From contig PASR01000008.1 in the NCBI GenBank assembly GCA_002713365.1, positions 210,363 through 274,362 on the forward strand: a DNA stretch of 64,000 bases, written 5' to 3'. Numbering within the stretch: the stretch's first letter is position 1; every line of letters starts with the position of its first letter. This DNA is from Rhodospirillaceae bacterium. GTDB taxonomy: Bacteria; Pseudomonadota; Alphaproteobacteria; UBA6615. Made by a program: the position numbers and the translations under genes. Below the pieces are notes generated by a model that saw only the letters and a list, made by a program, of their open reading frames with translations, did not search any database and was not told the origin of the DNA. This document shows, in pieces, positions 11,465 to 38,058 of this stretch.

Positions 11465-11803
11465 CTATTTTTTATACTCTATTTCTAACGCTATAATATC
11501 CTCTTCACCCACGTTTATAGCATTATGATCAAAGCCATTGCCTACATCATAAAAACTAGCCTTTCCTGACTCTGATTTTATTGTACCACTCGATCCGTCT
11601 GAATCCTGGTGAATTAGATTTCCAGACTTCAAATGATATGCAACATAATTTTTATCGTGCCGATGCCACCCAGTTTCTTGACCTGGTTTGATATGATGAT
11701 AAGTAATCCGTGTACTTTCATTTTCCAAAAGAACCTCAGCACTACTTAGATTAGTTTTTAAAACACTATTTTCATTAAAATCTGATTTTTTAGACATATG
11801 CAT
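11465..11803 (-). CDS. Cupin-domain protein
   Basis: ENESTRITYHHIKPGQETGWHRHDKNYVAYHLKSGNL; about 110 aa single-domain cupin. Confidence 0.75.
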   Translation of the reverse strand: MHMSKKSDFNENSVLKTNLSSAEVLLENESTRITYHHIKPGQETGWHRHDKNYVAYHLKSGNLIHQDSDGSSGTIKSESGKASFYDVGNGFDHNAINVGEEDIIALEIEYKK

Positions 11804-11845
11804 TTACACTATATAATGAGCCTAGATAAACGTAAGTAATAAAAT

Positions 11846-13081
11846 TTACTCCGCAGCAATAGAATATTCTGGTGTTTCTAATTCTGGAACAACTTTTTCC
11901 ATAAACAGCTGTAGTTCCTCTAATAATTCATCTTTAGGCTGCTGAGCCCAATGCCATATAAGCGTTATGTATTCGCAGGGAATGCGTGAATATATTTCCT
12001 GCCAATCAGCAATAGCATCATCTATTGTGCCGCCAAGAAAAAATTTGGATTCTTTCATTAATTTAAAAGCTTTTTCTGAATCATTATTAACTGCATCCAC
12101 ATTATGATTAGCAAATACACTATAAAAGTTTTTAAATATATCTAGATCATATTTTTTTAGCCTAATATCAAAATCCTCGGCAGATTTTGCGATTCGCGTA
12201 TGTCGAACTAAGTTTTGATTCTGACCATACTGAACATTGCGACCATGTTTCAATGACTCCTCTACATAAACTTTTGCTAATTCAACTACACTATCAGTTG
12301 GGTTGAAATAACTAGGACTAAAGCCATGTTTAGCAGCAAATTCAATGGTTGCACGACTTCTTGCAACCGCACAAAAACAAGGTGGGTGTGGATTTTGATA
12401 GGGTTTAGGCACAACAGAAATACGACGTAAAACGCCATCTTCATCAATTTCACCTTCAGCACCTGCTTCACCCGCTATCTGGTGACCTTCATACCCCTTA
12501 ATCCCTGATTCCAGAGGATAAGGCGCCTGATAATACTTACCATCCAATCTAACTGAATCCTTTGTCCAACAATCAAGTACCATCTGAACACGCTCTTCAA
12601 AAATTTCTCTATTTTTTGAATCATTGGCACTACCATCAGATACTGTGGCCACGGCATCACTGCCTTGGCCCAGAATATTTGTCCAACGTGATTGATAGCC
12701 TCGTGCAAAACCAACAAAATATTTTCCATTGGTCAAATGATCTATCATTGCAGTTTCTTCAGCTACACGAATTGGATCATGAGTTGCCATTACATAGCCA
12801 AAAGCTCCTACCCTTATATTTTTAGTGTAAGCAGCCCAGTGAGCATTAAGCACTCCTGGATTAGGACCAACCTCATAGCCCTCAGAATGTAGATGATGCT
12901 CAATGGTAGACATACCCCAAACACCCATCTCATCTGCTGCTTTAATTATATCAGTCCACTCATGGATAATTTTATGATATAGCTCGGAATCACGTCCGAG
13001 AGGACGTTTTTCTTTTCTTTCTTCCTCATCCTTTGCCGGAAATACAGGATAAAGCTGCACGATAACCTTTGGTGATCCCAT
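11846..13081 (-). CDS. LLM class flavin-dependent oxidoreductase (paralogue of 5826-7136)
   Basis: STIEHHLHSEGYEVGPNPGVLNAHWAAYTKNIRVGAFGYVMATHDPIRVAEETAMIDHLTNGKYFVGFARGYQSRWTN; near-identical motifs to the first LLM protein. Confidence 0.88.
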   Translation of the reverse strand: MGSPKVIVQLYPVFPAKDEEERKEKRPLGRDSELYHKIIHEWTDIIKAADEMGVWGMSTIEHHLHSEGYEVGPNPGVLNAHWAAYTKNIRVGAFGYVMATHDPIRVAEETAMIDHLTNGKYFVGFARGYQSRWTNILGQGSDAVATVSDGSANDSKNREIFEERVQMVLDCWTKDSVRLDGKYYQAPYPLESGIKGYEGHQIAGEAGAEGEIDEDGVLRRISVVPKPYQNPHPPCFCAVARSRATIEFAAKHGFSPSYFNPTDSVVELAKVYVEESLKHGRNVQYGQNQNLVRHTRIAKSAEDFDIRLKKYDLDIFKNFYSVFANHNVDAVNNDSEKAFKLMKESKFFLGGTIDDAIADWQEIYSRIPCEYITLIWHWAQQPKDELLEELQLFMEKVVPELETPEYSIAAE

Positions 13082-13267
13082 GACCTAACTTCCTTGCTAT
13101 TTAAATTACTAATATTTTAACAAACCAAATAAGACACTAAAATAAATAATTATCTATAACCGCTATATCCAGTATTATATAGATCAATTTGCTGACTCAC
13201 TATTTTTTATAAAGCTAAACGTTTGCCTATAATCTTATCAAGATATGATGTCTATTATCATACTAAA

Positions 13268-14524
13268 TTAATCAATAACACCTCGTTTAATTGCCCAGAA
13301 AAACAAAGCAACTATGCATACAAACAATAGTAAAGCGCTCAATGCTAGTGAGAAATGAATTCCTATTAATCCGCCTCCAAAACCTACTGTGAATCCGCTA
13401 AACGTTCTTCCTCCCAAACTTCCTACATTAAACAATCCAATGGCACGGCCTCTTATCTCTGGGGGAGCGTGTAATTGGGCTAATGTTTGTGTCATAGAAT
13501 TAAATGACAAATCAAAGAAACCTGCACAAAGCAATAAAATAATTGCTAATATATAATTTCTAGAAAGAGAGAAACCTAAAATAGCCAATGCCCACATTAT
13601 GCCGAGAATAAAAGATGTACGTGTTTTTGCTTGCAACATATTTCGGGCCTCTAAAACTAGACCAGCAATAAGAGCGCCCGCCGCATTGGCCGCCAGCAGA
13701 AGACTATAATATAGACCTTGCCCGCCATAGCCGAGGTCACTCGCAAACTCTGGCATTTGCGGCTGATGGGCATTACCAACAATTGTCGCAGCAAGGCCGG
13801 CAAGAACAGACATAGTGAAGACAATTGGAATACCAGATATTTGACGAACAGCCTCAATTAAATCATGTAAACTCGTCATTGCCAGAGGAGGTTTCTTGCC
13901 GTTTTCCTTTATGGGTTTTGGGTTTTTAATTAGCCACAATGTAAGGGGAAGATAGATAAGAATATTTAATAAAATTCCCTTTGTTGGTCCAACAATTAAT
14001 AGTAGAGCTCCTCCTATGGCTGGGCCTAATAACATGCCAAGGGTCATGGCTGTCGCGAGTAATCTAATACCACTTTGTAATTGCCTTGAACCAACAACAT
14101 TATGAATTAATACTTGGCCTGCAGGCGCCCACAATGCTCCCGCAAACCCATGAACAATAAGAAGAATTACAGCATGCCACTTTTCCAGACTATCAGTGGC
14201 AAATAATAATCCCCAACCTAACGAGCCCAACATAAACAAACTCATTGCAACTTGAATTATACGTCTTGGGTCATAACGATCAGCTAAAGCACCTGCCCAG
14301 ATAGAACCAACAAGAAAAGGCAACCAATGAGAAATAACAGCAAACCCAGCTAAAGAAGGTGAATGAAATTTTTCAAATATTATCCAGTAACTTATTACAT
14401 GCTCAACACTATCAGCCATCATTGCCAAGGCGGCACCAATCAGATAGTGGCGCGAAGCAGGATATCGAAGAGCAGCGTAAGACCTCTGGTCTGCTTCATT
14501 CAATTTTGAAACTCTTTTTTCCAT
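13268..14524 (-). CDS. MFS transporter
   Basis: Multi-TM; GALADRYDPRRIIQVAMSLFMLGSLGWG; likely start is the internal ATG (MEKRVSKLNEADQ) at 14524. Confidence 0.85.
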   Translation of the reverse strand: MEKRVSKLNEADQRSYAALRYPASRHYLIGAALAMMADSVEHVISYWIIFEKFHSPSLAGFAVISHWLPFLVGSIWAGALADRYDPRRIIQVAMSLFMLGSLGWGLLFATDSLEKWHAVILLIVHGFAGALWAPAGQVLIHNVVGSRQLQSGIRLLATAMTLGMLLGPAIGGALLLIVGPTKGILLNILIYLPLTLWLIKNPKPIKENGKKPPLAMTSLHDLIEAVRQISGIPIVFTMSVLAGLAATIVGNAHQPQMPEFASDLGYGGQGLYYSLLLAANAAGALIAGLVLEARNMLQAKTRTSFILGIMWALAILGFSLSRNYILAIILLLCAGFFDLSFNSMTQTLAQLHAPPEIRGRAIGLFNVGSLGGRTFSGFTVGFGGGLIGIHFSLALSALLLFVCIVALFFWAIKRGVID

Positions 14525-14639
14525 TAATACAAAAAGCCAATGCAACCAAATTTAATAAGAGGATAATAGTTCAATACAACCACGCGAAATGGTTACCATT
14601 TTTACTAATATCCAAAATTCAAATCTTTGGTTTTGGCTA

Positions 14640-15989
14640 TTAGCCAAATACAAGTTCGGGAAGTATGGTTACTATACCCGGAAAAATATATAGTAGGATA
14701 ATTAATGCCAGCAGCAAAATCCAATAAGGTGTAGACCCCTTAAATATATCCATTAAAGTAATATCGCCTTCGTGGCCAGCGGGAATTGACGCTCTAACGG
14801 TGTAAACCAGAAGGCCAAATGGTGGCGTCAAAATACCAGCTTCAATAGCTAAAATTCCAATCAAAGCATATGCTAGAGGGTCGAGACCAATCGCGGTAGC
14901 AATCGGGGCAAAAATTGGCACCGTTAAAAGCATGATAGAAACCGAGTCGACAATCATTCCCAATACAAACCATACCAGCACCATAATTGTTACAACCTGC
15001 CAAGGGTCCAGGCCGGCATCAGCAAAGAAGGTTTGAATAGCCGATACGACGCCTGTCATTGTCAATGTACGTGAATACAGTTGAGCAGCTATAAGCAATA
15101 TGAGCAAAGGAGCGGCAGTTCTTCCAACTGCTAGAATACCAGCATATATATCAGGCCAACGCATTCCCTTAATAATACCTAGTAAAAGAGCTATTAGTGC
15201 TCCCATACCCGCAGCTTCAGTGGGAGTGAATAGGCCAGCCCAAATCCCTCCCAAAACTGTAACGATTAGTCCCAGCAACCCTAATCCACTAGTCCACATA
15301 GACAAAGAATCAATCTGTTTTTCGTCAGATAGATCACTAACTTCTTGCTTAGACCCAGGGGTTAACCCAACTAATTGTGGTTTTAGAAAAGATGCTCCTA
15401 ATATGTATATTGCAAAGAAAGACACCAAGATTAGACCAGGCAAAACACCCGCTAAAAATAGTTTTCCAATGGATTGCTCTGTTAAAATACCCCACACTAT
15501 CATCAGCACACTCGGGGGAATAAGCATCCCTAGGCACCCGCTACCAGCTATTGAGCCTAAGGCAAAGCTTTTATTATAACCATGGCGCTTCATTTCAGGA
15601 TATGCAATTCGGGTAAACGTCGCCGCCGAGGCAATACTTACACCAGTGACAAAAGAGAATACAGCATTCCCAAACAGTGTAGCTAAAGCTAAGCGTCCAG
15701 GAATACGACGAAATGACCGCTGGAGACCTACATAGAGATCACCTGTAGCTCCTGACCTTCCAATAAATTCGCCCATGAGCATAAATAACGGTATGACAGC
15801 AAAAACATAGTCACGGATAGCGTCATAGAAAGTGTTCTGTATTAGGGCTAGTACTACTGTTTCACGACCGGTAACCATATAAATACCAACCGCACTTGTT
15901 ACTCCAAGTGCAATGGCGACATGTATTCCAGAAAACACTAATACCAAAAGGAGTATTAGTACGACAGCGGCAATATCAGCAGAAAACAT
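14640..15989 (-). CDS. dctM: TRAP transporter large permease subunit
   Basis: VIPLFMLMGEFIGRSGATGDLY...GSGCLGMLIPPSVLMIVWGILTEQSIGKLFLAGVLPG...FTPTEAAGMGAL. Confidence 0.93.
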   Translation of the reverse strand: MFSADIAAVVLILLLVLVFSGIHVAIALGVTSAVGIYMVTGRETVVLALIQNTFYDAIRDYVFAVIPLFMLMGEFIGRSGATGDLYVGLQRSFRRIPGRLALATLFGNAVFSFVTGVSIASAATFTRIAYPEMKRHGYNKSFALGSIAGSGCLGMLIPPSVLMIVWGILTEQSIGKLFLAGVLPGLILVSFFAIYILGASFLKPQLVGLTPGSKQEVSDLSDEKQIDSLSMWTSGLGLLGLIVTVLGGIWAGLFTPTEAAGMGALIALLLGIIKGMRWPDIYAGILAVGRTAAPLLILLIAAQLYSRTLTMTGVVSAIQTFFADAGLDPWQVVTIMVLVWFVLGMIVDSVSIMLLTVPIFAPIATAIGLDPLAYALIGILAIEAGILTPPFGLLVYTVRASIPAGHEGDITLMDIFKGSTPYWILLLALIILLYIFPGIVTILPELVFG

Positions 15990-16009
15990 ATTTAGAACTC
16001 CTCGATGGC

Positions 16010-16558
16010 TTAGCCAGCAATATCCGGTTCAGCCTCGACAACGTAAGATGGCAAAATTTCTTTTAAAGCTAGAATCATATAATTAATTACTAGAAGGCCA
16101 GCTGATAATAAGACAACTACACGAGCAGGCCAGGTAGGAACTCGTAATGCACCTTCACCCTCAAATTCGCCGGTAATTATAGCGTGCCAAGCAGGCTCAA
16201 TAGTACCTATAAATAATCCAGCAAAAAACAAAGCGCCTAAGATATACCCGGCGCTATTTATAAACCTTTCGGGTTTACCGCCGAGTAAATGCAGAATAAA
16301 GTCTGCTCGGAGCATCGATCGGGCCATAACACAGTAAGCTGTTTGCATAAAAGCAATCATCACGATTGCGTTTTTTACTAATTCATGCGTACCTTTCAAA
16401 GGGAAACCAAAGGCTCTTCCTACCACATCAATAAGAATATAAAAAGCTAGAAGAAATGCCCACATTGCTGCGACAACCATTAAGCCCCTACTTAAACGGC
16501 TTGACCATATATCAATCTGACGAATTATTGGGATGTTCAAATAAGACAAGATCCTCAT
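16010..16558 (-). CDS. dctQ: TRAP transporter small permease subunit
   Basis: Four-TM protein of about 180 aa with VDVVGRAFGFPLKGTHELVKNAIV-type DctQ motif; adjacent to dctM. Confidence 0.88.
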   Translation of the reverse strand: MRILSYLNIPIIRQIDIWSSRLSRGLMVVAAMWAFLLAFYILIDVVGRAFGFPLKGTHELVKNAIVMIAFMQTAYCVMARSMLRADFILHLLGGKPERFINSAGYILGALFFAGLFIGTIEPAWHAIITGEFEGEGALRVPTWPARVVVLLSAGLLVINYMILALKEILPSYVVEAEPDIAG

Positions 16559-16895
16559 ACCCCTTTTATTATTACAGAATCTCTAGATTAAGAAATTATT
16601 GCTTCAATTAGTTTATTTTAACCAGACTAAAGATAAACTAGCAAAAAAATTTCCTAATTCATTCTAAACTGGGGCAATGAGCCAAAACGTTAGCCGTTCC
16701 AATAGATAATTATGAGTATATTAGTGGTTTCATGACTTGTCACGCCCCAATAAGGCAGTTAACAATTATTTAGGATAATTTGAATAATTAAAAAATAATA
16801 ATAAAATAGAGTAGTTTTTTTGTTTATTATAGTTAAACTGACCTAGTCTACCCTTGCAGATCGTAAATTAAACAACGATTCTGTAACAACTACAA

Positions 16896-16913
16896 TGGAA
16901 CTATATAGTTCCA
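16896..16913. promoter_or_regulatory. 18-bp perfect palindrome TGGAACTATATAGTTCCA just upstream of dctP (candidate operator)
   Basis: Read directly; self-complementary and 8 nt before the ATG at 16922. Confidence 0.5.
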
Positions 16914-16921
16914 AAAGTAAT

Positions 16922-18010
16922 ATGAGGAGAAGAAACTTGTCTAAAACACTTGGAATACTGGCAACTGGTGCTCTAGCTATAGGATTAGCTGCAGCCCTAC
17001 CAGGCGCAGCTAGTGCCGATAAATTTAATTTTCGTATGGCGTCAGGACATGCACCGGCCACTGGTTATGTAAGAATGATGTCCGAACAATTTGCTCCACG
17101 AGTAGTAGCGAAGCTTGAAGCAATGGGACATAAAGCTACCTTCAATGAAGCCTACGGCGGTTCAATCGTTAAAGTGGCTGAAACACTTGAAGGAGTTAAA
17201 GATGGAATAGTTGATCTAGGTGGATATTGTTTCTGCTTTGAACCTTCTAACTTGTTCCTTAATACCTATCCACTATGGATGCCATTTGACGCACAAAATG
17301 CCACCCTCGGAACAAAGGTAGCTCGCGAAGTCTATAATAATGTGCCGCACATGGCCGGAGTATTTGAGAAAAAGTACAACCAAAAATTATTAGGGCTATT
17401 TGGATTTGATAATTATGGCCTTTACACAACCTTTGCCTGGGATTCTGTTACAGAGCTTAAGGGTAGAAAAATGTCCGGTGCAGGTCCAAACTTACCTTGG
17501 GTAGAGGCAGTTGGAGCTATCCCGGTTGGTACAACATTACCTGACGTATACCCATCTCTGCAAACAGGCGTTTATGATGGCGTACTTCTGTTCCCTTCCG
17601 TTGGCTGGAGTCATAAACTCTTTGAACCAGCCCCTCATTATAAAATTGTTGGATTTGGTTCAAAAACATTTCATGGTGTAACCATAAACATGGACACATG
17701 GAAGTCGCTACCAGCGGACGTGCAAAAAGCAATGTCTGAAGCCGGAATGGAGACAGAAGACTTTACAGGTCCTTGGGTTGACGAACTAGAAGCGACTAAC
17801 CTTGGCCGCATGGTTATGGCAGGTGCAAACGTTACACGAGTAACGCCTGAAGCCCGTTTAGCTTGGGCTAAAACACTTGCTGGTTTTCCAAACATGAGAG
17901 CGAAAGAAGCCGATTCAAAAGGTTTACCTGGCTCCAAAGTAGTTGGAATGGCAGTCGATGTAGCAGAAAAACTAGGTCATAAATGGCCAGTTAGATATGT
18001 CATTAAATAA
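16922..18010 (+). CDS. dctP: TRAP transporter substrate-binding protein DctP family
   Basis: MRRRNLSKTLGILATGALAIGLAAALPGAASADKFNFRMASGHAPATGY (signal peptide plus DctP fold); LYTTFAWDSVTELKGRKMSG...TTLPDVYPSLQTGVYDG. Start could also be TTG at 16937. Confidence 0.9.
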   Translation: MRRRNLSKTLGILATGALAIGLAAALPGAASADKFNFRMASGHAPATGYVRMMSEQFAPRVVAKLEAMGHKATFNEAYGGSIVKVAETLEGVKDGIVDLGGYCFCFEPSNLFLNTYPLWMPFDAQNATLGTKVAREVYNNVPHMAGVFEKKYNQKLLGLFGFDNYGLYTTFAWDSVTELKGRKMSGAGPNLPWVEAVGAIPVGTTLPDVYPSLQTGVYDGVLLFPSVGWSHKLFEPAPHYKIVGFGSKTFHGVTINMDTWKSLPADVQKAMSEAGMETEDFTGPWVDELEATNLGRMVMAGANVTRVTPEARLAWAKTLAGFPNMRAKEADSKGLPGSKVVGMAVDVAEKLGHKWPVRYVIK

Positions 18011-28021: not shown

Positions 28022-28717
28022 ATGGTGCAAACCATAGCGTTAGTTGACGACGATAAAAATATATTAACTTCATTATCTATGGCCTTAGAGGCTGAAGGTT
28101 TTATAGTAAATATTTATTCAGATGGCACTGAAGCTTTTTCTGGCCTATCAATTAAACCAGCAGACCTAGTCATACTTGATATAAAAATGCCACGAATGGA
28201 TGGCATGGAACTATTGAACCGACTAAGACAAAAATCAAATATTCCTATTATTTTTCTCACCTCAAAAGATGATGAAATTGATGAAGTTATAGGCCTACGC
28301 ATGGGAGCAGATGATTATATAACTAAGCCTTTCTCCCAGCGTCTGTTAATAGAAAGAGTTCGTGTTGTTCTAAGACGCAAAGAAAATAAAAATAATCCTG
28401 ACGAGAATTCTAGTGGAATTATGAAGCGTTCTGGTTTGGAGCTTGATCCTGCAAAACATCTTTGTAGATGGCACGAAAGGGAAGTCGTTTTAACAGTTAC
28501 AGAATTTCTTATAGTCAAAGCTCTTGCGCAAAGACCAGGTCATGTTAAAAGCCGTGACCAACTTATGGACACAGCGTATGGTGATAATATTTATGTAGAT
28601 GACCGAACCATAGATAGCCATATTAAACGATTAAGAAAAAAGTTTAAGAAAGTAGATAATAGTTTTGCTCAAATAGAAACACTTTATGGCATAGGTTATC
28701 GTTATAAAGAAGGTTAA
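28022..28717 (+). CDS. chvI: Response regulator transcription factor, ChvI-like (OmpR family)
   Basis: [24 protein letters not shown]...[18 protein letters not shown]...[16 protein letters not shown]. Confidence 0.9.
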
Positions 28718-28838
28718 TTTAGAGACACTAACTTTAATTCTCGGTAGAATTAATTATACTAACCACCCATACTAGATAAGATCGTGATAATAAAGAGACT
28801 AAAGCTAATCATTAAAGATTCTACGAGGGCTCTACTGC

Positions 28839-30509
28839 TTGATTGGGGTTAGTAATTTGGTGTTCCGTTATCTGCAATATATAATAACTTGGTGTAAACA
28901 AAGAAGAGCTTCTTCTTCCCTGACCAGACGCATTTTAGCAATCAACCTTTTGGTGTTAATAGTGCCTGTAGGCGGATTCTTTTTTCTTGAAAGCTATCAG
29001 AAAAGGCTGATTGAATCAGAGATTGAAAGCCTAAAAGTTCAAGCCGAAATATTTGCAGGAGCGGTCGGAGCTCTTGCCACAAAAACATCTCCAATACTAG
29101 GACATCAAATTATTCCTATTCGGGCTAACATAATGCTGCACCGGTTAACCAGCATTACTAATACAAGAGTTAGGTTATATGGATCTAACGGAACACTAAT
29201 GGCTGATACTCAGCTCTTCCCAATATCAAGAGGAGCAGTTCTTATAGATGAATTACCTCCACCTGATAGTGAGATAGGGCCCGGCCGCTGGTTTGTTAAT
29301 CAGATAAATAAATTTTTAAATTGGATTCCAGGACAAAATAAGCTGCCTCTTTATATTGAAGCCAACCCCTCCAATGCGGAAAACTTTAAGGAAGTTAAAG
29401 TTGCTTTATTTGGAGAGCAAGCCGCAGCAGTTAGACGACATGAACCAAATGGACTAATAATTTCAGTTGCATTGCCTGTTCAACATTACCGCCAAGTTAT
29501 TGGCGCGCTAATGGTGTCCAATAATGGACATAAAATCGAACAAGCAATGCGAGCAATTCGTTTAGACATACTAAAGGTTTTTACTATAGCCTTAATTATT
29601 ACCATACTCTTATCACTTTACCTGGCAGGGACTATTGCAAGGCCCATAAACCGACTGGCCGCAGCAGCTGAGAAAGTAAGGACAGGTCATGGACGACATG
29701 TTTATATACCTGATTTTACTTCAAGGCGTGATGAAATAGGAGAACTAAGCCGTGACTTAAGAGGTATGACTGAAGCCCTTTGGCAGCGTATGGATGCTAT
29801 TGAAAAATTTGCTGCAGATGTTTCACACGAAATTAAGAATCCACTTACTTCATTACGAAGTGCCGTCGAAACCGTCGCTCGCATTAGTGATATAGAAAAA
29901 CAAAAAAAACTGATGGCAATTATCTTAGACGACGTTCAACGTCTTGACCGTTTAATTAGTGATATATCTGATGCATCACGGCTGGACGCAGAGCTAAGCC
30001 GCGATGTACCAGCTCCCGTAAATCTTAGACAGCTTTTAGAAGCACTTACAGAGATTGAAAAAGACACAGCCCTAAACCTAAAGCTATCAATTTATTTATT
30101 TTTAGAAGAAGAAACTGACTTAATTGTTTCTGCTTCAGAAGGACGATTAGGCCAAGTGTTTTTAAATATTATTAATAATGCGATATCATTCAGTCCTCCA
30201 CACACGAAAATCATAATTCGTGCCGAACGGAGGATTAAGGAAAATGGGAGTTTTATAAGGGTAAGCATAGAGGATGAAGGCCCTGGAATTCCAGAAGATA
30301 AACTAGCATCCATTTTTGACCGATTTTATACAGACCGTTCTGTAAATGCAAAAAAAGATGACAGCATACTCTTAACTCACTCAGGTCTTGGTCTAAGTAT
30401 ATCGAAGCAAATAGTGGAAGCAGCCGATGGACATATATGGGCAGAAAATTGTTATAAAAATAATCTTATTTCAGGGGCTATATTTATTGTTGAATTGCCG
30501 GCTAATTAG
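28839..30509 (+). CDS. chvG: Sensor histidine kinase, ChvG-like (TTG 28839 or GTG 28860 start)
   Basis: HAMP, VSHEIKNPLTSLRSAVET H-box, N/G boxes; directly downstream of the regulator. Confidence 0.9.
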   Translation: MIGVSNLVFRYLQYIITWCKQRRASSSLTRRILAINLLVLIVPVGGFFFLESYQKRLIESEIESLKVQAEIFAGAVGALATKTSPILGHQIIPIRANIMLHRLTSITNTRVRLYGSNGTLMADTQLFPISRGAVLIDELPPPDSEIGPGRWFVNQINKFLNWIPGQNKLPLYIEANPSNAENFKEVKVALFGEQAAAVRRHEPNGLIISVALPVQHYRQVIGALMVSNNGHKIEQAMRAIRLDILKVFTIALIITILLSLYLAGTIARPINRLAAAAEKVRTGHGRHVYIPDFTSRRDEIGELSRDLRGMTEALWQRMDAIEKFAADVSHEIKNPLTSLRSAVETVARISDIEKQKKLMAIILDDVQRLDRLISDISDASRLDAELSRDVPAPVNLRQLLEALTEIEKDTALNLKLSIYLFLEEETDLIVSASEGRLGQVFLNIINNAISFSPPHTKIIIRAERRIKENGSFIRVSIEDEGPGIPEDKLASIFDRFYTDRSVNAKKDDSILLTHSGLGLSISKQIVEAADGHIWAENCYKNNLISGAIFIVELPAN

Positions 30510-30677: not shown

Positions 30678-31577
30678 ATGGGAATATCGAGAGTTGAATC
30701 TTTAATTTATGGTGTTACAGATATAGATTCTGGGATCCGGTATTTTGAAAATTGGGGCCTAGAAAATGTAGAGAAAGGTGCAAGCGGCGCAATATTCAAA
30801 ACGCCCACTAATCAAACCATTCATATAAAATCAAAAGACAATCCATCTTTACCATCAGCCCCAGATGACGAAAACTCAACTGTACGCCAGACAATATGGG
30901 GTGTTGAAACAGCTGCAGATCTAGAAAAAATTGGGGCAGAGATGTCGATTGACCGAGAAGTCAAATTAAACCCTGATAATTCTATACAAGTAACAGATGA
31001 ATGCGGGTTTTCCCTGGGTTTTTGTATTGGTAAAGTCAAAGAGTTAAAGGCCTTACCTTCTCGCGTTAACTTGAATGAAAACTCTGAAAGGCTTAATGCA
31101 GTTGTTGAATCATTGCCGCAGGCTAAACCTTTAAGGCTCGGGCATGTGGTCTATTATGTTCCTATAGAAAAAGCCGACAAAGCTGTTTCTTTTTATATCG
31201 ACCGATTAGGGTTTCGTCTATCCGATCGAACTTTAGGACGCGGAGATTTTATGCGCTGCCCAGGATCAAGGGATCATCACAACTTGTTTTTACTAAGACG
31301 TAAAGATAAAGCTGCATTCAATCATGCAGCATTTGAAGTACAAAATTTTGATGAAATTATGATGGGAGGCGTATTTATGAAAAATAATGGATGGCAGCCC
31401 GAGACTACTCCAGGGCGTCATGTTCTTGGATCAAATCTTTACTGGTATTTTCGTAATCCGTGTGGCGGCAACACAGAATATTTTGCAGACATGGACTGTA
31501 TGGATGATGATTGGGAACCACGTATTTGGGATAAAAACCCAGGATTTTCGCTTTGGTCAATAAGCGATCCGGATTAA
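30678..31577 (+). CDS. VOC family protein (extradiol-dioxygenase-like)
   Basis: LRLGHVVYYVPIEKADKAVSFYIDRLGFRLSDRT...DHHNLFLLRR...FNHAAFEVQNFDEIM; tandem glyoxalase-fold modules. Confidence 0.83.
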   Translation: MGISRVESLIYGVTDIDSGIRYFENWGLENVEKGASGAIFKTPTNQTIHIKSKDNPSLPSAPDDENSTVRQTIWGVETAADLEKIGAEMSIDREVKLNPDNSIQVTDECGFSLGFCIGKVKELKALPSRVNLNENSERLNAVVESLPQAKPLRLGHVVYYVPIEKADKAVSFYIDRLGFRLSDRTLGRGDFMRCPGSRDHHNLFLLRRKDKAAFNHAAFEVQNFDEIMMGGVFMKNNGWQPETTPGRHVLGSNLYWYFRNPCGGNTEYFADMDCMDDDWEPRIWDKNPGFSLWSISDPD

Positions 31578-31802: not shown

Positions 31803-32855
31803 ATGAAGCAAATAAATGTTGGAGTAATAGGGACTGGTTGGACTGGAGGAATCCGGGCTAATGCTTGTGCACGAAGTCCATTGATTGATGAACTCCACAT
31901 AGCTGAGATTAACCCAGAACGCCTTGCAGAAGTTAAAGATGAGACAAACCCTGTTTTTTCTACAACAGATTGGGAAGTCCTTTTAAAAAAGGATGAAGTC
32001 GATACAATAATTATTTCTGCTACTCCAGAGTCAACGCACTATCCAATGATAAAAGCAGCCTTGGAAGCTGGAAAACATGTTTTTGTAGAAAAACCCATTT
32101 CAACCACAATAGCCGAAGCAGATGAAGTGATAGCATTGGCTGCGGAAAAGAATCTAAAATTTACCGTTGGTTATTCACAGAGGTTTGAGCCCAAACATGC
32201 CTATATAAACAAAGCATTAAAAGAAGGGTTGGTAGGTGATCCAGTAACCTGTCTAGTTAGTCGTAATGTAACACGCGAGTTGGGGAACAAAATAACTGGT
32301 CGTTCTAAACTGTCACCAGCAGCCATGGAAGCAACACATGATCTCGATTTTCTCTTATGGTGCCTTCAACCCCGCAAGCCTATTCGTGTTTACTCACAAA
32401 CATCAGGAAAGCTATTCAGACGAAATAGCGAAACACCTGACCATCAATGGATTATGGTGACCATGGATGACGGTACAACCATTACAGTTGGTGCCGGATG
32501 GATTTTACCTATTGGTTATCCAAATTATTCTCAGTGTTGGATAGAGGTCGTTGGAACTGATGGGGCGCTAACGATAGATGACACGCATAAGGAGGTTCAA
32601 TTCAATACTACTGATCATGGAATACGTTATCCAATGTCATCTATGCCTGGAGAACCTGTCGACCACGTGTTCGCCGGGCCGATGGCAGCTGAAACAATCC
32701 ATTTTGTCGAAGCTGTAGTCTATGACCGACCTGTGATGGTAAAACCGGACGAAGCTAGGCTAGTTATGGATGTATATACTGCAGCAGATTTATCAGACGA
32801 ACTTGGTGAACCGGTAACTCTGCCGCGAAACGACCCTACATTGATAACAGAATAA
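31803..32855 (+). CDS. Gfo/Idh/MocA family oxidoreductase
   Basis: NVGVIGTGWTGGIRANACARSPLIDELHIAEIN...VFVEKPISTTIAEADEVI. Confidence 0.92.
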   Translation: MKQINVGVIGTGWTGGIRANACARSPLIDELHIAEINPERLAEVKDETNPVFSTTDWEVLLKKDEVDTIIISATPESTHYPMIKAALEAGKHVFVEKPISTTIAEADEVIALAAEKNLKFTVGYSQRFEPKHAYINKALKEGLVGDPVTCLVSRNVTRELGNKITGRSKLSPAAMEATHDLDFLLWCLQPRKPIRVYSQTSGKLFRRNSETPDHQWIMVTMDDGTTITVGAGWILPIGYPNYSQCWIEVVGTDGALTIDDTHKEVQFNTTDHGIRYPMSSMPGEPVDHVFAGPMAAETIHFVEAVVYDRPVMVKPDEARLVMDVYTAADLSDELGEPVTLPRNDPTLITE

Positions 32856-32981: not shown

Positions 32982-33737
32982 ATGGATCAAGCAGTTTGGG
33001 CAATCTGGTATGACCTCCAAGATCAGACACAGTCAGAATATACAGATTGGTTACATAAAGAATATTTGCCTATCCTACAATCACGTCCTGGTTTCACTTG
33101 GGCGGCTCATTACCAAAGCCAGGGTGGTGGAGCGGATATGGAAAAAGTCAGAAACACTTTTCCAAAGTCACATGGAATGGAAGGCTTAGGAAAGGGAACG
33201 CAGTTTCTAATGTTAGTTGGCGCCACAGAACCATGGGTTTTACTGGATCCCAGCGTAATACATGAAGAACGCGCAATTACCGGAAAAGTGAAAGAAATGC
33301 TTAATATGCGTCAAAATACCCGGTCATGTATATTTTCAGTTTTTGCTCGGGTTAATGGTCCAGAAATGAATAAGAGACCTCTAGGAACGACCCCGGCCCC
33401 TGCAATACAGATGGGTAGCTTCCGTATAAATGAGTTGGAAAATGAGTATGATGTCGGCGCATGGTACGCTCAACAAAGACTTCCAGCCATGGCCAAAATG
33501 CCAGGGTGTATTGGGGCCAGGGTCATGTTATCAATAGCTGGATGGGCAAAGTACTCAGTTTTGTACGAATTTACTTCATTAGAAACTCGTCTTAAATATT
33601 TCGAAAAGCCACTTGAATCCTTAATGCTAGATGAGCAGGAATGGTCAGGTAAGATCGTCCGTTCAACAATGCATACTCCTGGTTCACCAACCATAGCTAG
33701 AAGAATATGGCCAGCAGTGCCAGTTGAAGATGAGTAA
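32982..33737 (+). CDS. Uncharacterised protein, EthD/Dabb-like tandem domains (tentative)
   Basis: AVWAIWYDLQDQTQSEYTDWLHKEYLPILQSRPGFTWAAHYQ; repeated in the C-terminal half (DVGAWYAQQRLPAMAKMPGCIGARVMLSIAG). Confidence 0.6.
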   Translation: MDQAVWAIWYDLQDQTQSEYTDWLHKEYLPILQSRPGFTWAAHYQSQGGGADMEKVRNTFPKSHGMEGLGKGTQFLMLVGATEPWVLLDPSVIHEERAITGKVKEMLNMRQNTRSCIFSVFARVNGPEMNKRPLGTTPAPAIQMGSFRINELENEYDVGAWYAQQRLPAMAKMPGCIGARVMLSIAGWAKYSVLYEFTSLETRLKYFEKPLESLMLDEQEWSGKIVRSTMHTPGSPTIARRIWPAVPVEDE

Positions 33738-34650
33738 AATAGACTTACACTTCGGAGGCTACCAGGGCCCATACTCGGTACATAGCCGCGCTATATCTGT
33801 ATTCAGAGAAACATTAGATTTTTCGCTAGGAAAAGATTTAGATTTTACCCAGTCTCTTAACATAATGGATATGGGAAGGCCCGCTTCAGATTTAATTAAT
33901 ATGGTATCTTCTGGCGAACTCACATTTTGCTATTTTTCTTCAAGTTATTTAGCTGATACAGTTAAAGAATTTCAACTACTAGACCTGCCATTTATGATTC
34001 AAGACCGTGAACAGGCTTACGCCATGATTGACGGCCCTTTAGGGCATTTTCTTGAAGAAAAAATTGATGAGGCTTGTGATTTTAGAATTGTCTCATGGTG
34101 GGATAATGGGTTTCGTCACTTTTCTAATAAAGTACGTCCTATTCGAAACCCAGCTGACTGCGATGGCCTTATTATTAGAAGCTTACGCAGCGATATATAT
34201 AAAAAAACATACTCTAGCCTTGGTTTTAAACCAGTATATTTAGATGTAAGCAAATTAAAAAGTGCAGTGGTATCGGGAAAGGTCGATGCCCAAGAGAATG
34301 CATTAACTAATATATTTAATTTTGGAATTAATAATCATCATCGCTGGATTACCCTATCACAGCATTTTTTTGGACTAGCAGTAGTATTATGCCACAAAAA
34401 AACGTATGACAGTTGGCCTGTAGAAGTTAGAGAAATCGTTAATGCCTCAATTAAAAAAGCTACTGATGCTCAACGCAAACTTGCCGCCGCAGAGGAAAAA
34501 GAGGTTTTAGAAAGATTTGATCTATCAAACAACGAAATTATTACATTAGGTGATGCTGAACGACTAGAATTTGCCTCAACTGTAAAACCAGTTATTGATA
34601 ATACAGTAAGCGGTTTTCGAAATAAACTTTTTGATTTTATTTCTGTTTAA
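33730..34650 (+). CDS. DctP-like (TRAP SBP fold) protein lacking a signal peptide
   Basis: GLIIRSLRSDIYKKTYSSLGFKPVYLDVSKLKSAVVSGKVDAQENALTNI matches the DctP core; N-terminus MSKIDLHFGGYQGPYSVHSRA has no leader. ATG 33730 overlaps the upstream gene. Confidence 0.82.
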   Translation: MSKIDLHFGGYQGPYSVHSRAISVFRETLDFSLGKDLDFTQSLNIMDMGRPASDLINMVSSGELTFCYFSSSYLADTVKEFQLLDLPFMIQDREQAYAMIDGPLGHFLEEKIDEACDFRIVSWWDNGFRHFSNKVRPIRNPADCDGLIIRSLRSDIYKKTYSSLGFKPVYLDVSKLKSAVVSGKVDAQENALTNIFNFGINNHHRWITLSQHFFGLAVVLCHKKTYDSWPVEVREIVNASIKKATDAQRKLAAAEEKEVLERFDLSNNEIITLGDAERLEFASTVKPVIDNTVSGFRNKLFDFISV

Positions 34651-34677: not shown

Positions 34678-35565
34678 TTAATTAGAATTTCGTATTTTAT
34701 CAAATTCTGGATATAATAAACTATAGTCTTTTTCCGCCATGCCATTATCAATAGCCCGATTAAGAAACTGCAGCGTTTCTTTAGCGTAGCGTGCATCAAT
34801 ATTCATTGATTCTGCCATTTTTACCGCCATGCCTAGGTCTTTATTCAAGTTATAGACTCGCGATCGAGCATCCCATTTTTCAGAAAGTATATGTTTAGGA
34901 AACCTAAATTCACTAGAATAGCTACGTGCATTAGAGTTATTAAAAACCTCAACCATATCTGCCAAAGATATACCTGCTGCCTCAGCCATTATACCAGCTT
35001 CACAATTGGTAAGAAAAATTGTGTGAACAACCATGTTATGTATTAATTTCATAGCATGACCCGCTCCGCTCTCACCAAGATAAAATATACTTTTAGCTAT
35101 AGCATTTAGCATCGGTCTTGAGCTTTCATACACGTTCTTATCACCACCAATCATTAAGGTAAGTGAGCCTGAATCAGCTCCTGTCGCACCGCCGCTCATA
35201 GCTGCATCTAGATATTTCACACCGTGTTTATCCGCTAATTCAACTACTCTTTTCGTGTCCTCTGGAAACGATGTTGTTAAATCAAAAACTACTGTACCTT
35301 CTGCTGCTTGCGCCAAAACACCCTGCTCTCCCTCCAATGTTTCTTCTATTTCTCGTGTTGCTGGCACAACATAAAATAATGTGGCCCCTTGAGCGGCCAT
35401 CTCACCTGGAGATAAAACATACGTATTTTCAATATTTCTAAATTTCATAATTGCTTCTTTAGAAACATCCCACACACCTGTTTCATAGCCAGCAGCTGCC
35501 AAATTTCTAGCAACACCACCTCCCATATTTCCAAGCCCAATAACCCCTGCTTTCAAACTAGTCAT
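34678..35565 (-). CDS. NAD(P)-dependent oxidoreductase, 3-hydroxyisobutyrate dehydrogenase family
   Basis: AGVIGLGNMGGGVARNLAAAGYETGVWDVS...DAAMSGGATGADSGSLTLMIGG...GAGHAMKLIHNMV. Confidence 0.92.
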   Translation of the reverse strand: MTSLKAGVIGLGNMGGGVARNLAAAGYETGVWDVSKEAIMKFRNIENTYVLSPGEMAAQGATLFYVVPATREIEETLEGEQGVLAQAAEGTVVFDLTTSFPEDTKRVVELADKHGVKYLDAAMSGGATGADSGSLTLMIGGDKNVYESSRPMLNAIAKSIFYLGESGAGHAMKLIHNMVVHTIFLTNCEAGIMAEAAGISLADMVEVFNNSNARSYSSEFRFPKHILSEKWDARSRVYNLNKDLGMAVKMAESMNIDARYAKETLQFLNRAIDNGMAEKDYSLLYPEFDKIRNSN

Positions 35566-35639: not shown

Positions 35640-36767
35640 TTATAGTTGTTGATAATACTCGTCGAGATTAAGGGGTAGTTTTAGTTCTTCACATCTAGCT
35701 GAAGATAGATCCATAGCCATTGTCAGAAGAAGGTTTTTATGGCCTTCAGCAGCTGTCGCATGCGGTGTTTTCATACCTGTGTAAAGGCGTTGATACCATG
35801 AGTTAGTTTCTTCTCTCATGGGCCCCCAAAACTGGCCGTCAAAAATGTCACCAGCCGGATAGCTTGTAAGAAAGTCTACATGACGTTGATATTCTGGAGT
35901 AAAACCATCTGGAACATATCCTCCGCCCTGTGGGACTTCAGTAGCAAGTACAAGGTCCCTATGAGTATCTTCAATGTCTATAACACCTTTATTACCAATT
36001 ATACCAATTTCCAAGCCATAAACAGCTCCAGGCCACACAACAGGTGCTGCCCAACTTATATTCATAGAAAACATGGTATCGTCATCCATCATAAATACAC
36101 CAAAGGTTGAGTCCTTTGTTCCATATTGAGAAAGAGCTAAATCATTAGAGCGGGCATAAATAGAAACTGGCTTTTTACCCTCCATCAACCACATAGACAT
36201 ATCTAATGCATGAGTACCTGAAACAACCATAGGGGTTAAATTTTCACGTTGGTTGGTTCTTTGCACCGTGGCAATAGGTACCATCCGATTCATTATTGCA
36301 CGCGTTACTACTCCTGTAACCTGGCCTATTTGACCCGTATTTAGTCGCTCTTTAACTGCTAGGAACCTTCTGCGAAAGCGATTAGTATAACCAACGACAG
36401 CATCCACACCAGCTGCTTCTATGGCATCTAGAACCCTCTGCGACTCTCTAACGTCTGTAGCTAATGGCTTTTCAATAAATAAGCTATGACCTTGGTCCAC
36501 GGCGGCAAGTGTTGGAAGCACATGATGGTTTTCATCTGTAGAAATAATAACTGCGTTTACTTCCGGTCTTTTTAGTAATGTTTCATAACTGGTAGTAAAG
36601 AAATCAGCTTTTGTATCTTGTGCAAGTTGCTTTCCTAGATCTTCTTTTATATCACACAGGCCTAACCAACCAATACCCGGGTAATCACGCGCAATTTCAG
36701 CACGTATTCTTCCTATTGTACCGCAACCTATTATTGCTAGTCCTATTTCTTTACGTTCGCCGATCAT
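35640..36767 (-). CDS. Gfo/Idh/MocA family oxidoreductase
   Basis: GLAIIGCGTIGRIRAEIARDYPGIGWLGLCDIKED...LFIEKPLATDVRES. Confidence 0.92.
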   Translation of the reverse strand: MIGERKEIGLAIIGCGTIGRIRAEIARDYPGIGWLGLCDIKEDLGKQLAQDTKADFFTTSYETLLKRPEVNAVIISTDENHHVLPTLAAVDQGHSLFIEKPLATDVRESQRVLDAIEAAGVDAVVGYTNRFRRRFLAVKERLNTGQIGQVTGVVTRAIMNRMVPIATVQRTNQRENLTPMVVSGTHALDMSMWLMEGKKPVSIYARSNDLALSQYGTKDSTFGVFMMDDDTMFSMNISWAAPVVWPGAVYGLEIGIIGNKGVIDIEDTHRDLVLATEVPQGGGYVPDGFTPEYQRHVDFLTSYPAGDIFDGQFWGPMREETNSWYQRLYTGMKTPHATAAEGHKNLLLTMAMDLSSARCEELKLPLNLDEYYQQL

Positions 36768-37047: not shown

Positions 37048-38058
37048 ATGTACTCGGTCGATATCCATGCCCATTTTTTTAGCAGTGGTTATATTTCTAT
37101 ACTTGAAAAACATGGACATATTGTTGGGTGGTCAGTTGACCGTCACAGTGATGGATCTATTTCAATGATCCCACCCAATGGTCGCGCGATAGGCCCTATA
37201 GAACCCAGCTATTTTGATGTTAATGCTCGTCTAGAAGGTTTGGACCGTCAAGAAACGGACCTGCACGCTCTATCTTTAACAAATCCAATGTGCCATTTCA
37301 GAGATGATGCTTTTAACCTTGATTTAGCTCAGGCTTACAATGATGAAACAGCAGAATTTCATTCTGCTCACCCAGATAGGTTTATCGGTTTAATTACATT
37401 ACCTATGCTTAAAGCTGATGATGCTGTCTCCGAACTAGAGCGAGCTGCAAAACTGCCAGGGTCCAGAGGTGTATATATGTGCACTAACGTGGCAGGGCAT
37501 AATCTATCAGAACCAAGATTCGCACCAATATTTGATAAGGTTGCTGAATTAAAATTACCAATATTTCTGCATCCCGGGAATGTAATTGGAGCAGACCGCC
37601 TTAATGATTATCATACAATTAATACTATTGGAAATCCTACCGATACAGCAGTCGCCGCCACTTTTCTAATATTTAGCGGTATTCTAGATAAATACCCAAA
37701 TTTGGAAGTAAGTCTTCCACACGCAGGTGGAACTTTCCCTATACTAATAGGCAGAATCGACCATGGTTGGACAGTAAGAAAGGAGTGCAAACATCTCAAA
37801 AATGCACCATCAACCTACTTACGCCGTTTTACCTATGATACAATTGGTCATGCTAATTATGTTATGAAATACTTAACTGAACTAGTTGGCGTAGACCGAG
37901 TCGTTTTGGGTAGTGACTTCTGTTTTGATATGGGTCATGAAAAACCAGTACAAAATGTTATGGAATATGACTGGCTAAACGAAGAAGAAAAGAGAGCTAT
38001 CATTGGCGGTAACGCTTGCCGTATCCTTGGCTTAAAAGTGCCTGAAGCCTCAGAGTAA
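37048..38058 (+). CDS. Amidohydrolase family protein (ACMSD-like)
   Basis: VDIHAHFFSSGYI...IFLHPGNVIGADRL...VSLPHAGGTFPILIGRIDHGW...VVLGSDFCFDMG. Confidence 0.88.
   Translation: MYSVDIHAHFFSSGYISILEKHGHIVGWSVDRHSDGSISMIPPNGRAIGPIEPSYFDVNARLEGLDRQETDLHALSLTNPMCHFRDDAFNLDLAQAYNDETAEFHSAHPDRFIGLITLPMLKADDAVSELERAAKLPGSRGVYMCTNVAGHNLSEPRFAPIFDKVAELKLPIFLHPGNVIGADRLNDYHTINTIGNPTDTAVAATFLIFSGILDKYPNLEVSLPHAGGTFPILIGRIDHGWTVRKECKHLKNAPSTYLRRFTYDTIGHANYVMKYLTELVGVDRVVLGSDFCFDMGHEKPVQNVMEYDWLNEEEKRAIIGGNACRILGLKVPEASE

Follow-up and report, generated by a model that had tools for sequence, protein, structure and literature searches.

A DctP-fold protein without signal peptide or cognate TRAP permease in a conserved catabolic gene cassette of a Rhodospirillaceae bacterium

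The 64,000-nucleotide stretch of a Rhodospirillaceae genome analysed here (the window) encodes a 306-aa protein that belongs to the DctP family of TRAP solute-binding proteins (SBPs) by sequence, fold and binding arginine, and that fails two defining features of these receptors, the leader and the cognate permease. Judged by its sequence, the protein therefore does not function as a TRAP receptor. We consider it probable that it is a cytosolic carboxylate-binding protein that has departed from TRAP transport, likely serving as an enzyme or accessory binder in sugar-acid or carboxylate catabolism. The following features of the window are referred to below:

14640-15989, minus strand: DctM, partner of the DctP at 16895-18010
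16010-16558, minus strand: DctQ, partner of the same DctP
16895-18010, plus strand: leadered DctP of ordinary type, accompanied by a DctQ and a DctM of its own, outside the cassette and given for contrast
30678-31577, plus strand: VOC-family protein, extradiol (catechol 2,3-) dioxygenase-like (PF00903; TIGR03211 at 58.6 bits, under its cut-off), found in the own genus only
31803-32855, plus strand: Gfo/Idh/MocA oxidoreductase A, at the same place in relatives (62-92% identical)
32982-33737, plus strand: soluble protein of 251 aa with no family assigned, earlier called EthD-like (79% mean column identity over 11 relatives)
33694-33696, plus strand: in-frame TAG that closes the frame upstream of the DctP start
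33730-34650, plus strand: leaderless DctP-fold gene
34678-35565, minus strand: HIBADH/threonate dehydrogenase-like oxidoreductase, convergent with the DctP gene and conserved in the cassette
35640-36767, minus strand: Gfo/Idh/MocA oxidoreductase B, a conserved cassette member (76-91%)
37048-38058, plus strand: Amidohydrolase_2 (PF04909), kept in three relatives (L009-L011)

Family membership, start codon and predicted fold

The frame is open from the ATG at 33730 to the stop at 34648-34650. Its product matches the DctP model PF03480 over residues 53-291 (E 2.3e-49), with 168.7 bits against a curated cut-off of 23.4, and passes NF037995 (127.7 versus a cut-off of 50), while its score with TIGR00787 (139.6) lies below the 175 of that model. 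From an alignment of 33 sequences, AlphaFold2 predicts a complete two-domain TRAP SBP fold (pLDDT 92.5, pTM 0.89) in which strand 1 is formed by residues 4-9; the modelled protein is a mature TRAP receptor with nothing ahead of this strand. The best 50 Foldseek matches listed are all TRAP SBPs (TM 0.75-0.91 by query length). The DctP core that the original prediction had read in the translation is thus borne out by both the PF03480 match and the predicted fold.

Three residues, R129, R150 and N190, are invariant among the 33 leaderless sequences introduced below. In alignments with 4p47 and 4ovs, R150 falls on their arginine, at the site of SiaP Arg-147. This SiaP residue binds the carboxylate of the ligand, and 96.8% of DctPs retain it (PMC4646407); the window protein has this carboxylate-binding arginine of TRAP SBPs. 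Other positions set the leaderless clade apart: G10, Y11, H18, Y68, Y73, N194 and H204 are fixed or nearly fixed in it and not in the leadered comparison set, and an N-terminal motif, G-Y-Q-G/P...S-V-H-x-R-A, is specific to it. By homology, these clade-specific conserved residues would be placed in the pocket. The leadered comparison set was obtained partly via the stretch WWDNGFRH, and the sharing of this motif is therefore a selection effect that we did not count as evidence.

No hydrophobic Sec or Tat leader is found in the 306-aa protein. An in-frame TAG had been described about 15 codons upstream of the ATG; the codon is there, at a distance of 11 codons (LEEYGQQCQLK), which excludes a longer N-terminus and leaves no room for a leader. 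The alternative start TTG 33724 would add two residues and alters nothing. Within the first 40 residues, hydrophobicity peaks at 0.63 in the window protein, and the leaderless set of 33 spans -0.40 to 1.55. The nine leadered DctPs that the own genome encodes reach higher values: eight of them score 2.0-2.5, and the ninth, which is Tat-like, scores 1.6. Together with conservation across homologues, this upholds the absence of a signal peptide that had first been read from the sequence. The upstream gene ends with the stop at 33735-33737 and shares 8 bp with the DctP gene, exactly as had been stated; the EthD-like label of that gene is not supported, as its product does not match the Pfam EthD model. 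Pfam returned DUF4286 (0.0005) and ABM (0.14) only, both sub-threshold, and the AlphaFold2 fold of the 251-aa protein (pLDDT 40) was not used.

Distribution, origin and permease pairing of the leaderless proteins

A leader is missing from each of the 33 homologues aligned (31-63% identity), as judged where the N-terminus is in the sequence, and they begin at the same Met or within a few codons of it. Homologues were found in about 20 genomes of family mates, in two Rokubacteria, in a Rhodospirillaceae MAG and in the cultured Jannaschia aquimarina. Leadered close homologues, which the original prediction had named as evidence that would count against it, were not found among the homologues checked. 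The Rokubacteria copies have no ATG, GTG or TTG at the expected position, and translation there likely begins at a CTG that overlaps the preceding gene's stop codon. As the contig is MAG-derived, and as the reading frame of the gene is broken in one relative (L022), one might suspect an annotation or assembly artefact in the form of a start further upstream, a frameshift or a decaying pseudogene. We regard this as extremely unlikely: the stop just upstream of the ATG, a predicted fold that begins at strand 1, an N-terminus that is the same at over 40 loci in independently assembled genomes, and dN/dS values of 0.06-0.31 (eight pairs of leaderless genes), which indicate purifying selection, all speak against it. 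A start-site or frameshift error specifically is ruled out by the start conserved in independent genomes and by dN/dS. The break in L022 (8001-8925), within the leaderless DctP of a single MAG, is a sequencing error or a young pseudogene.

In a maximum-likelihood tree of 83 DctPs, a single branch (support 100/100) separates all 33 leaderless sequences from the rest. The leader label changes once in this tree, and the leaderless clade is recovered in 200/200 bootstrap trees; the leader was lost once, and the clade has a single origin within a leadered sample that was picked by similarity, such that other leaderless groups may exist elsewhere. Among 385 alphaproteobacterial genomes, matches at the level of the leaderless proteins occur in the own family only, the next match beyond it (210 bits) being a leadered protein in genome G083. 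A plasmid collection yielded matches of 26-31% only, and those that carry an annotation are named TRAP receptors.

The own genome (2.52 Mb) holds 12 DctP genes, nine DctM loci (from 11 hits, three of which are pieces of one gene on contig C10) and nine DctQ genes. Each of the nine leadered DctPs adjoins a DctQM, including one on contig C3 that is truncated by the contig end, with its leader and DctQM present. The three unpaired DctPs are exactly the leaderless ones: the window gene (contig C6) and two paralogues on contigs C8 and C18, which are 33% and 31% identical to it and 53% identical to each other. No cognate DctQM lies near the window gene, as had been noted from the sequence; the nearest (14640-16558, minus strand) is about 17 kb away and has its own leadered DctP. 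This ordinary TRAP set (14640-18010) has its DctP on the plus and its DctQM on the minus strand, in divergent orientation. The DctM/DctQ inventory rules out an overlooked adjacent DctQM, both in the window and elsewhere in the own genome. Across the loci of 18 relatives, tblastn with two DctM, one DctQ, TctABC and TAXI queries found no TRAP permease beside window-type genes and TctABC alone there; with two DctM queries, a divergent permease might have escaped detection.

Conserved neighbouring permease genes in relatives had likewise been named as grounds for doubt. In the loci searched, none adjoins the window-type genes; at C8-type genes the picture differs, as in genus g216 (among the matches listed) a TAXI-type TRAP permease and its own leadered TAXI receptor lie upstream. 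The permease is found about 31 bp upstream in L118, beyond an intervening GST gene in L128, and also in G409; L118 and L128 belong to the family mates G403 and G413, in which it is fused. The DctM matches listed over 20 family mates were used for such positive cases only. This adjacency is what could be held in favour of a periplasmic receptor that is exported without a classical leader, by a non-classical or piggy-back route, and serves a TRAP or TAXI permease. Yet the g216 permease has a leadered receptor of its own, window-type genes adjoin no TRAP or TAXI permease, the partner proteins of the cassette have no obvious leader either, and ordinary leaders are used by the nine leadered DctPs that the own genome encodes. 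We therefore consider such export very improbable. The absence of a leader in all homologues checked, its single loss, the unpaired paralogues and the soluble enzymes of the cassette together make a non-periplasmic location well supported. We strongly infer from these sequence data that the window protein is cytosolic and has no part in TRAP uptake.

The conserved cassette and the settings of deeper paralogues

The cassette has a conserved order: Gfo/Idh A, the 251-aa protein and the leaderless DctP, followed in convergent orientation by the HIBADH-like gene, a GntR/UTRA regulator and Gfo/Idh B. Metallo-beta-lactamase-fold genes and TctBAC are optional between Gfo/Idh A and the 251-aa protein. 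The regulator is present in most cassettes, and no match to it was found in those of the window, L009 and L010. Gfo/Idh A is 78-92% identical in relatives and 62% in the distant L121, where the pair of 251-aa protein and DctP is retained with a DctP just 43% identical. Identity across relatives is 52-63% for the DctP versus 63-92% for its cassette neighbours, a lower conservation that would be unusual for a core enzyme. In four relatives (L011, L016, L121 and L026, the Jannaschia aquimarina locus) a TctC with intact leader, part of the TctABC carboxylate importer, lies beside the leaderless DctP, and in L025 a gene 35% identical to the window amidohydrolase lies directly upstream of it.

Upstream of the cassette, the window carries a ChvI/ChvG-like two-component pair (28022-30509), which is also seen in L011, L014, L016 and L018. 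Relatives have RapZ, and some also an HPr-kinase-like gene, after the cassette; in the window, AHCY, TsaE and an AddB-like gene occupy that place. The catabolic cassette thus seems to be inserted into a chvIG-hprK-rapZ locus.

The neighbourhoods of the leaderless paralogues are catabolic settings as well. The C8 paralogue is adjoined by a copy of Gfo/Idh A (64% identical), one of two Gfo/Idh genes there. Its locus (L074) further holds two amidases, an isochorismatase-fold hydrolase, RidA, Ldh2, a GMC oxidoreductase and an FMN-dependent alpha-hydroxy-acid dehydrogenase, and the cluster looks like one for the breakdown of an N-containing or amide substrate. C18-type genes are accompanied by a molybdenum hydroxylase, alpha/beta hydrolases and SDRs, the Rokubacteria copies by an HbpS-like protein and an enoyl-CoA hydratase, and the Jannaschia copy by TctA-TctC, a zinc alcohol dehydrogenase and a DHDPS-family aldolase. 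Elsewhere in one Rokubacterium locus (L024, about 11600-14000), a repeat array that reads as 'SVPSSSGNIVE' ORFs is probably a CRISPR array, and a Cas4-like ORF (14497-15171) lies beside it.

Possible functions and relation to known systems

A cytosolic ligand sensor, a chaperone or a repurposed enzyme had originally been suggested; of this proposal, it is the non-periplasmic location that conserved leader absence, the unpaired leaderless paralogues and the soluble cassette enzymes sustain. The putative ligand in the cleft might be a carboxylate, such as a sugar acid or a related oxo- or hydroxy-acid, and the leaderless DctP would bind the acid that the neighbouring Gfo/Idh and HIBADH-like dehydrogenases would process. 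Among the possible roles we favour, at a probability close to even, that of a pathway enzyme of the isomerase, lyase or dehydratase type, in which the cleft would close over the substrate. This reading draws on the clade-specific residues shared by deep paralogues, on the dehydrogenases that constantly accompany the gene and on cyclohexadienyl dehydratase as a precedent; it is weakened by the retention of transport-type binding residues, by divergence faster than that of the neighbours and by the fact that no catalytic residue can be identified. Nor is one common reaction evident, since the genes around the deeper paralogues vary (Mo-hydroxylase, GMC/amidases, TAXI, HbpS-like).

The retained carboxylate residues of transport type fit plain binding as well as catalysis. 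A non-catalytic cytosolic carboxylate binder, acting as a carrier or buffer that takes the acid after import, passing a labile intermediate from one enzyme to another or serving as a sensor for the GntR/UTRA regulator, is a serious candidate, if at less than even probability. R129, R150 and N190, the TctABC or TAXI importers adjoining in some relatives and the regulator in most cassettes agree with it. Three points speak against it: UTRA regulators sense ligands themselves; the window, L009 and L010 retain the DctP with no GntR/UTRA match; and, in addition to the carboxylate clamp, the three deep paralogues have conserved residues specific to the clade in common. Where relatives encode TctABC or TAXI alongside, the transporter relies on a leadered receptor of its own, and the leaderless protein would come into play once the acid has entered the cell.

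Compared with known DctP TRAP SBPs (PF03480; SiaP, DctPAm 7bbr, 4p47), the leaderless clade shares the whole-length fold, the carboxylate arginine and a significant sequence match, but differs in having no Sec/Tat leader, no cognate DctQM, an N-terminal motif of its own and a catabolic cassette. Solute-binding folds have been reused in catalysis in other cases: MqnA/MqnD, THI5 and hydroxymethylbilane synthase are enzymes of SBP fold. Cyclohexadienyl dehydratase is likewise a solute-binding protein turned enzyme (PMC7683729). All of these derive from SBP families other than TRAP DctP, and they offer a precedent for an enzyme role, which for the window protein is a possible one. Orphan receptors such as Bordetella Bug/TctC and R. 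palustris AdpC resemble it in having a receptor-type fold with no adjoining permease, but they are extracytoplasmic and belong to another family, TctC (PMC5812351), whereas the window protein is leaderless. No report of a leaderless DctP was found in the open-licence literature searched.

Since NF037995 passes its cut-off, automated naming would call the leaderless proteins TRAP substrate-binding proteins; the uptake capacity of these marine bacteria would thereby be overcounted and a catabolic component missed. The single leader loss, with orthologues and leadered outgroups at hand, makes the transition from binder to cytosolic protein testable by expression and ancestral comparison, as for cyclohexadienyl dehydratase. 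Tentatively, the TRAP receptor fold may have been internalised once through loss of the leader, to become a cytosolic catabolic enzyme or a dedicated acceptor of imported acids, and then have split into at least three paralogous lines, which would make it the first known DctP-derived enzyme.
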